A stretch of DNA of 64,000 nucleotides from Terribacillus aidingensis (GTDB taxonomy: Bacteria > Bacillota > Bacilli > Bacillales > Amphibacillaceae): the NCBI RefSeq assembly GCF_040703035.1, contig NZ_CP159996.1, positions 1,026,001 to 1,090,000 of the forward strand, written 5' to 3'. Position numbers and translations under genes: made by a program. Position 1 is the first letter of the stretch. Each line of letters begins with the position of its first letter. Below are positions 1,541 through 44,952 of this stretch, one piece after another. The notes beneath the pieces are model-generated. The model saw only the letters and a list, made by a program, of their open reading frames with translations, made no database searches and had not been told where the DNA came from.

Positions 1541-2083
1541 ATGAAAAAGAATAAACGTTGGAAGTTTTTCTTCCTGTTTGCCGGCATCGTGCTTTTGATT
1601 TTCTTTTCCAGGGAATTAATCTTTGCGGATTATCGAGTGGAAGGGGAGTCAATGGAGCCGACCTTGCAGGACGGTAACTTCCTGATGGTGAACAAGTTCA
1701 TGAACGACGCAGATAGTATCCAGCGTTTCGATGTCATCGTCTTTCACGCAACAGAGGATGAGGATTATGTGAAACGGGTCATTGGAATGCCCGGGGATGC
1801 AGTGGAAGTAAGAAATGACAGACTGTTCGTAAACGGTGAATACAGACCGGAGCATTATTTGGAAACGTATAAAGATGATGTCGAGGGACAGCTGACATAT
1901 GATTTTACATTGGAAGACGTTACCGGACGGACGACAGTGCCCGAAGGAATGCTGTTCGTAATGGGTGATAATCGAAGAGACAGCCTTGATAGCCGCTCAT
2001 TTGGATTCATCCCGATTGAACAAGTTGTCGGGAAGGTGGATGCCCACTTTTGGCCGGTGTCCGCATCTGGACTTGGAGTTTAG
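1541..2083 (+). CDS. lepB: Type I signal peptidase (SipV-like)
   Basis: A 180-residue type I signal peptidase, which cleaves signal peptides from secreted proteins on the outer face of the membrane. One N-terminal membrane segment (residues 7-25) is followed by the catalytic domain. The Ser/Lys dyad is visible: the serine in VEGESMEPTL (about residue 41) and the lysine in DYVKRVIGMPGD (about residue 81). The later box VMGDNRRDSLDSRSFG is also intact. Start ATG 1541 is chosen because a GGAGG site lies just before it; an upstream GTG at 1508 has none. Size and position between yhjE and addB match B. subtilis SipV. A strong terminator follows directly. Confidence 0.92.
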   Translation: MKKNKRWKFFFLFAGIVLLIFFSRELIFADYRVEGESMEPTLQDGNFLMVNKFMNDADSIQRFDVIVFHATEDEDYVKRVIGMPGDAVEVRNDRLFVNGEYRPEHYLETYKDDVEGQLTYDFTLEDVTGRTTVPEGMLFVMGDNRRDSLDSRSFGFIPIEQVVGKVDAHFWPVSASGLGV

Positions 2084-44267: not shown

Positions 44268-44338
44268 CGTACCACCTCCGACTATCATCACTTTATGCAG
44301 GCATGGAAAAGACTAGACTAAGTGAGCTTGTGACTTTT

Positions 44339-44356
44339 TTGTGAAATTGTGCACAT
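44339..44356 (+). promoter_or_regulatory. Rex-like operator upstream of roxS
   Basis: TTGTGAAATTGTGCACAT, compared with the Rex consensus TTGTGAAnnnnTTCACAA: left arm perfect, right arm 5 of 7. It ends five bases before the -35 of the roxS promoter. Rex (NADH-sensing) control of roxS is known in B. subtilis. Confidence 0.6.
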
Positions 44357-44361
44357 AATAG

Positions 44362-44391
44362 TTGCCATCTATCAATGTGATATGGTACATT
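44362..44391 (+). promoter_or_regulatory. roxS promoter
   Basis: TTGCCA (44362-44367), 18 bases, TACATT (44386-44391). Start near 44398. Confidence 0.6.
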
Positions 44392-44397
44392 ATATTT

Positions 44398-44503
44398 GTG
44401 AGAAACATCACAAACAAGTCCCCTTTGTTTGGATTATTGTTCTCCCATCCCCTCAGTAGAAGTTATACATGCAAAAAGGTCTGCCGAAAGGCAGGCCTTT
44501 TTG
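44398..44503 (+). ncRNA. roxS: Small regulatory RNA RoxS (RsaE)
   Basis: About 105-nt trans-acting sRNA of the RoxS/RsaE family, which lowers expression of central-carbon and NADH-producing enzymes by pairing with ribosome sites. The two hallmark C-rich seeds are present and spaced as in S. aureus RsaE: CCCCTTTGTTTG (44420-44431) and TCTCCCATCCCCT (44441-44453). The 5' end also resembles RsaE (ATCACAAACAAG before the first seed). It ends in an intrinsic terminator (AAAGGTCTGCC/GGCAGGCCTTT, GAAA loop, T5). The location between a small yizD-position gene and yjbH (spxH) is that of roxS in B. subtilis. Not coding. Confidence 0.93.
44473..44503 (+). terminator. roxS terminator
   Basis: Stem AAAGGTCTGCC/GGCAGGCCTTT with one T-G wobble, GAAA tetraloop and T5. 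The A-run before it also ends transcripts from the minus strand. Confidence 0.9.
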
Positions 44504-44898
44504 TTATGCTTCCCACTTTTTGAAGCTGTCCAAATCCTCAAAATGGATGCTATGAGCGCATGTATCAAATTGCTCGGTTTCTGCTTCTGTCCATAACTTC
44601 TTTCGATAAGATAGGGGAGTAGGGCCGCGCATAAGTAATGTTGAACATGTGACTTTTCGATAGGTTTCTGTATCATCGCATTTACATAATCCTGCGACGC
44701 TTTAATACCCTGTGGATTGAAACATAGCCAGCAGCCGTCTTTTGCTCCATAAGCGCTCTCTGTGTAGTATAAGAAGTAGTTTCCCTCTGTACTTGTTCAA
44801 TATTGTAAGACAGCGTAGCGAGAGTGTCGACTGTGACTATATACCTTATCAAGATATGTTAGCTGCAAACCATTTGAATAGAGGTAATGCTGCTTCAT
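44504..44898 (-). pseudogene. Decayed small gene between roxS and spxH
   Basis: A start with a very good ribosome site (GAGGAGGGGG before ATG 44898) opens a frame that hits an in-frame TGA after 33 codons. The same frame then continues with coding-like sequence (TEGNYFLYYTESAYGAKDG, CWLCFNPQGIKASQDYVNAM), after which a neighbouring frame takes over (TYRKVTCSTLLMRGP, LSYRKKLWTEAETEQFD, HFEDLDSFKKWEA) to a stop at 44504, next to the shared terminator. One nonsense change and one frameshift would restore a protein of about 130 residues. Family not recognised. The rest of the stretch 44268-45003 holds roxS with its control region and the spxH terminator. Confidence 0.45.
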
Positions 44899-44952
44899 GG
44901 GTTTTTCCCCCTCCTCTGTACATCTTTCTTCAATCCCCGGTTCAAGGAAATG

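Follow-up and report, generated by a model that had tools for sequence, protein, structure and literature searches.

The small RNAs RoxS of Bacillus subtilis and RsaE of Staphylococcus aureus are the closest described systems to the locus analyzed here. The genomic surroundings of roxS/rsaE are similar in B. subtilis and S. aureus (PMC4409812). Expression of B. subtilis roxS depends on resDE, and 8 conserved nucleotides near -65 were put forward as a candidate ResD box (PMC4409812); a Rex site lies immediately downstream of the start, where a Rex gel shift and derepression in a rex mutant were reported (PMC5419742). RsaE belongs to the same family, its control by SrrAB has been shown, and the roxS/rsaE Rex site is conserved in staphylococci (PMC5419742, PMC4409812). 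Binding of S. aureus Rex was most reduced by changes at half-site positions 4 or 5 and less strongly by changes at positions 6 and 1 (PMC2883068). At S. aureus srrAB, a proposed Rex site upstream of the -35, overlapping a predicted SrrA site, would interfere with SrrA (PMC8593685).

The locus described here lies in a window of 64,000 nucleotides of Terribacillus aidingensis DNA, the whole stretch analyzed. It resembles B. subtilis RoxS (PMC4409812, PMC5419742) in its position, C-rich seeds, hairpin 1, and 3' hairpin, as well as in a putative Rex operator at the start site and a conserved box near -65. It differs in its Rfam score (46 bits, against 123.5 bits for B. halotolerans, a relative of B. 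subtilis), in having neither the predicted middle-helix partner GUGA nor a second CCCCUUUGUU copy, and in a TGCACAT arm upstream of the -35 that is missing from the B. halotolerans, B. paralicheniformis, and B. changyiensis copies. The CACA of this arm was also absent from five Staphylococcus copies, none of them from S. aureus. S. aureus srrAB shares with the window a Rex-type site upstream of the -35; however, no sRNA is involved there, and the SrrA motif given for it, AAATAN4TTTAT, is unlike the box in the window (PMC8593685). A search of the open-licence literature retrieved no report on RoxS of Terribacillus or Oceanobacillus, and the texts searched, some of them partial, contained no description of the composite, regulon-shared form of the upstream site. 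RoxS and its Rex operator are known; this composite shared form is a variant.

The RoxS/RsaE RNA and its locus

The sequence-only reading had proposed a RoxS/RsaE RNA with two seeds, a promoter, and a terminator at the locus of B. subtilis roxS. Both seeds are present (Table 1), and a covariance search with the Rfam RsaE model (RF01820) matched the locus over the full model length with 46.0 bits (E 3.6e-5), which is below the curated gathering score of 79. Despite this score, the E value, the full-length match, and the gene order make orthology to RsaE/RoxS very likely, and we consider the locus a divergent but very likely genuine roxS/rsaE gene. No other copy in the 3.58-Mb genome is credible: the next-best RsaE match reached 24.7 bits (E 0.107), and a second roxS copy elsewhere was rejected with no match above that value. 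The length of 105 nt given in the earlier reading becomes 107 nt with the Rfam match, counted from a predicted start.

Table 1. Features at the roxS locus, in coordinates of the window.
Feature	Position	Strand	Remarks
ResD-type direct repeat, TTGTGAC-N4-TTGTGAA	44328-44345	+	step of 11 bp; approximately -70 to -53
Site 1, asymmetric palindrome TTGTGAAATTGTGCACAT	44339-44356		left arm is part of the ResD-type repeat; TGCACAT forms the right arm
Promoter (predicted)	44362-44391	+	-35 TTGCCA, 44362-44367; spacer 18; TG; -10 TACATT, 44386-44391; consensus scan
Site 2, putative Rex operator TTGTGAGAAACATCACAA	44396-44413		spans the predicted start site
RoxS/RsaE small RNA	44398-44504	+	~107 nt, start predicted; RF01820 match, fold
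C-rich seed 1, CCCCTTTGTTTG / CCCCUUUGUUUG	44420-44431	+	hairpin 1: loop and 3' side
C-rich seed 2, TCTCCCATCCCCT / UCUCCCAUCCCCU	44441-44453	+	sequence
Terminator-like hairpin with U run	44471-44504	+	15-pair stem, minimum-energy fold

The 107-nt RNA folded to -36.8 kcal/mol against a shuffle mean of -19.5 kcal/mol (z -5.98), and none of 200 shuffles was equally stable. In the fold, hairpin 1 presents CCCC in its loop and the 3' hairpin is strong, so that the C-rich seeds, hairpin 1, and the terminator hairpin of the RsaE/RoxS family are all found. As for the terminator, the 15-pair hairpin appeared in the fold, but a simple terminator scan listed it for the minus strand only and not for the plus strand; its plus-strand T run sits within the stem. 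After seed 2 the window has CAGUAG, where many Bacillaceae copies have UUGUU. Bases 1-72 of the RNA and site 2 were unvarying in all 14 Terribacillus rows (four named loci and ten genus genomes, some rows being the same strain).

A roxS copy was present in each of the ten genomes counted as Terribacillus, and close copies among the matches listed came from Terribacillus saccharophilus, T. aidingensis, and Virgibacillus sp. 7505. RF01820 gave 44.2 and 52.8 bits at two other Terribacillus loci. Of seven other loci from the same family (L206, L209, L217, L218, L224, L232, and L234), six scored 48.3-64 bits, and L218 gave no RsaE model match up to E 0.001. The cut-off was passed by Bacillus halotolerans and Mesobacillus (104.2 bits). 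Annotation by the Rfam cut-off would thus overlook roxS in all ten same-family copies scored (the window and these nine loci). Among the matches listed, paired roxS-like copies at distances of 366-418 bp occur at L012, L058, L075, and L079, and the start-site Rex palindrome is degraded in one of the two copies at L058, L075, and L079. On the strand opposite to roxS, L206 carries a weak match to the Rfam ylbH leader (1562-1669, minus strand; 35.2 bits, cut-off 50).

The gene order in the window is pepF-like, a 69-aa ORF, roxS, Thioredoxin_5 (spxH position), globin, CYTH, and RelA_SpoT. This order agrees with the earlier description of the locus as that of B. subtilis roxS. The 69-aa ORF at the yizD position had no Pfam match. 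Between roxS and the neighboring spxH/yjbH gene lies a broken hydrolase gene, an alpha/beta-hydrolase remnant at ~44505-44920 on the minus strand whose longest start-to-stop minus-strand ORF is 80 aa. The hydrolase frame at this place is open in L044 (287 aa, Abhydrolase_1) and L161 (288 aa), and its L106 counterpart has a longest open stretch of 146 codons.

The promoter claimed in the earlier reading was recovered as TTGCCA-18-TACATT with a TG, one of three promoter-like matches in the stretch scanned (0.5 expected), and relatives carry a similar -10 with TG at the matching place. Further upstream, CTAGACTA at 44313-44320 precedes the ResD-type box and is kept in the Terribacillus rows; in L161 and L162 it is part of a palindrome. 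Directly upstream of the roxS ResD-type box, L029, L070, and L095 carry cre-like TGAAAACG-type sequences.

Two palindromes around the promoter

Each of the two palindromes differs from the Rex consensus TTGTGAANNNNTTCACAA by two mismatches. Site 2 has the TTGTGAAN4TTCACAA form, the few mismatches, and the repressor position of a Rex operator, and it stands where PMC5419742 places the Rex operator of B. subtilis roxS. Its position 13 was T in all 109 Bacillales copies scored and TCACA was near-invariant, although these copies had been preselected for a recognizable site 2 and at least 5/7 matches to TTGTGAA, so that the conservation of both is inflated. These data support site 2 as the Rex operator already known from B. 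subtilis rather than a new one, and the palindrome spanning the predicted start is as the sequence-only reading had it.

The 109 copies were obtained from 124 scored, namely 123 from 119 named loci and the window. Of the 15 dropped, six had a poor site 2 (>5 mismatches), seven had no left arm at that spacing (five Staphylococcus and two Jeotgalibacillus), and two lay at contig ends. A separate family survey that required TGTGAA found a match in 95 of 159 genomes and none in 64; removal of ten Terribacillus and two others (one wrong anchor and one chance match) left 83 family copies from 35 other genera. All copy counts are raw and ignore kinship.

Upstream of the -35, site 1 has the place and the two mismatches that the earlier reading gave for a Rex-like palindrome, but its identity as a plain Rex site was not established; it sits on a ResD-type repeat. 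TTGTGA at 44328 and 44339 forms an 11-bp direct repeat, and TTRTGAC-N4-TTGTGAA recurs in relatives (upstream sequence read for 30 loci); a conserved upstream direct repeat is found at the place published for the putative ResD box (PMC4409812). The left arm of site 1 occurred in the 109 copies (exact TTGTGAA in 81, exact TGTGAA in 102), while a CACA right arm was missing in 74 of them. With so many copies retaining the left arm alone, whatever reads this arm seems not to need the palindrome.

The right arms that do carry CACA have a character of their own. In these 35 copies, position 13 was G in 18, A in 16, and T in one; leaving aside the five Terribacillus rows (n = 30), it was A in 16, G in 13, and T in one. 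Among the 83 family copies, the right arm took the form ATG[CA][AG]CA[AT]A, with genus-weighted frequencies of G.74, A.18, and T.08 at position 13 and A.54 and C.39 at position 14. The Terribacillus right arm TGCACA was unvarying in 14/14 rows, where the -35/-10 spacer drifts. Right-arm positions 15 and 14 mirror half-site positions 4 and 5, and site 1 of the window retains C14 and A15, the mirrors of the bases to which S. aureus Rex is most sensitive; both of its mismatches mirror half-site positions 1 and 6 (PMC2883068). Conservation of both arms as Rex half-sites is nevertheless not what site 1 displays, with A or G at position 13 in 34 of 35 right arms. In the relatives, then, the right arm of site 1 is not maintained as a Rex half-site, and site 1 is probably something other than simply another Rex operator.

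Symmetric and asymmetric sites were scored with separate matrices; the training set of the symmetric Rex matrix comprised the symmetric sites that the genus has at ldh, at cydA, and at an NADH-dehydrogenase-like operon. On this matrix, site 1 ranked first (18.0) and site 2 second (15.5) of 63,983 window positions, the matrix-building sites scoring 20.6-22.5. Site 1 was also the best in the window on the asymmetric matrix (20.2). Its four genus variants had symmetric-minus-asymmetric differences of -2.15, 1.24, 0.74, and -4.66, which lie between both classes, and the matrix scores alone therefore cannot decide between Rex and another reader.

The asymmetric form at other promoters

Zero-mismatch matches to the asymmetric pattern WTGTGAANNNNTGMACAW (WTGTGAA-N4-TGMACAW) numbered 37 in ten Terribacillus genomes, against seven for the reversed control, and every one of the 37 belongs to the promoter of roxS, ldh, or cydA or to a single divergent transporter/LysR promoter. 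A chance origin of the palindromes was rejected on these counts together with the matrix ranks. By promoter, the matches occur at roxS in ten of ten genomes, at ldh in nine (the tenth ldh site is one base off the pattern), and at cydA in ten, one genome having a further match at a second cydA-like copy. The remaining seven are located between a yhgE-like ABC-2/DUF3533 membrane protein gene and a divergent LysR-type regulator gene, immediately 5' of the transporter-like start codon. The conserved sequence there is TTGTGAAATATTGAACAT, present in seven of ten genomes (L263 2296-2313 and six further genus loci).

Pfam matches downstream of the ldh and cydA sites were Ldh_1 and cytochrome bd subunit I, and ldh and cydA are Rex targets in relatives. 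In all ten genomes, a symmetric Rex-type site at both of these promoters is accompanied by an asymmetric one of the TTGTGAA-N4-TGMACAW form. The ldh asymmetric site overlies a weakly predicted -10/spacer (one match, 0.6 expected); that of cydA has the opposite orientation and, in every one of the ten genomes, an A at position 14. Reading the ldh and cydA alignments by eye brought up no ResD-type direct repeat with an 11-bp step. For ldh, the status of Rex target is also stated in PMC5419742. The second cydA-like promoter (G008:C1:498704-499060, L185) carries both site types, and a stray site with no clear gene downstream was seen in another genus (L205).

Of the 83 family copies, 36 had a roxS site 2 with neither TGTGA nor TCACA, and 33 of these 36 kept TG[CA][AG]CA at site 1 (kinship ignored); this form was found in 4/14 copies with both site 2 arms, in 16/31 with TGTGA only, and in 2/2 with TCACA only. 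Site 2 of Terribacillus retains both TGTGA and TCACA.

The start-site operator is also part of the RNA, its right arm TCAC having GTGA as the predicted pairing partner, and in example folds (L060, L014, L015, and L011) the operator TCAC pairs with a downstream GTGA. In a set of 91 distinct hairpins, 66 came from other Bacillales (one Virgibacillus copy, L009, counted among them), of which 63 contained TCAC as well as GTGA; of 24 distinct same-family hairpins, 20 contained neither. The operator and the RNA helix thus appear to change together. Terribacillus, with one hairpin form, keeps TCAC and is missing GTGA, which suggests, without proving, that TCAC is kept there for DNA binding.

Regulators and readings of site 1

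The genome encodes Rex (352 bits, cut-off 177; best solved structure match 2vt2) and a resABCDE-like cluster comprising ResB (251 bits), resA-like (thioredoxin-fold) and resC-like (Cytochrom_C_asm) genes, and a response regulator and a kinase. The response regulator is named ResD by context, because its NCBIfam matches were limited to other OmpR-type models and stayed under the respective cut-offs. No TTGTGA was seen upstream of resA, and the literature searched contained no published ResD consensus.

We consider it moderately probable that ResD activates and Rex represses roxS as in B. subtilis, and that site 1 is a shared composite element. At high NAD+, Rex would occupy site 2 over the start site and block transcription, and NADH would release it; under hypoxia or nitric oxide, phosphorylated ResD would bind the direct repeat and activate roxS. 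The added right arm (about -48 to -42) could serve as a further ResD half-site or reflect competition of Rex with ResD on the TTGTGAA arm. Most likely, site 1 is a ResD-type box extended by TGMACAW that ResD reads as an extra half-site beside the -35, competition by Rex at site 1 being less likely. Some observations do not fit this reading well: site 1 retains the Rex-critical bases 14 and 15 and outscores site 2 on the symmetric Rex matrix, its TTGTGAA and right arm are only weakly alike as a direct repeat, the position of the same form over the weakly predicted ldh -10/spacer suits a repressor, and the cydA copy is reversed.

Several of these observations would be expected if both palindromes were Rex operators, with Rex near -50 blocking ResD and Rex at the start site blocking polymerase. 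The pairing of symmetric and asymmetric sites at ldh and cydA, the asymmetric site immediately preceding the transporter-like start codon, and the S. aureus srrAB precedent (PMC8593685) agree with such an arrangement as well. Yet position 13 separates the two sites, A predominates at position 14 in the family and at cydA despite the importance of this position for S. aureus Rex (PMC2883068), and the site centers are 57 bp apart (~5.4 turns), which does not favor looping. We regard a double Rex control as possible but rather unlikely, and the tighter NADH-dependent control that the earlier reading had expected from two Rex sites was not substantiated, the right arms of site 1 departing systematically from Rex half-sites. 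A Crp/Fnr-family protein binding the TGTGA-N6-TCACA-like site 1 is highly improbable. Three genome matches exceed the HTH_Crp_2 cut-off, one of them a 235-aa Crp-like protein, and at cydA a start placed by eye follows the asymmetric site at a distance of ~42 bp, the scan having found no plus-strand promoter there; but the 235-aa protein passes no NCBIfam cut-off, the center of site 1 is near -50 instead of -41.5, and its right arm is without the T of TCACA. With its single cysteine this protein has no Fnr-type cluster, and Fnr as the reader of site 1 was disfavored. That the right arm arose by chance or from promoter context, leaving only the ResD box and site 2 of importance, would suit the 74 of 109 copies without it, but is improbable given its invariance in Terribacillus next to a varying spacer, its recurrence at ldh and cydA, and the excess over the reversed control.

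Returning to ResD activation with Rex repression, a more specific proposal can be made tentatively, although we hold it to be unlikely: TTGTGAA-N4-TGMACAW would be a distinct composite operator of roxS, ldh, cydA, and the transporter/LysR promoter, with its TTGTGAA arm contested between ResD and Rex. As part of this tentative proposal, the asymmetric element may have outlasted the start-site Rex operator in part of the family. If true, signals from oxygen/NO and from NADH would converge on a single half-site common to both regulators. RoxS joins the NADH level, through Rex, and respiration/NO, through ResD, and the element common to roxS, ldh, and cydA offers a small testable regulon for how ResD and Rex may divide promoters between them.
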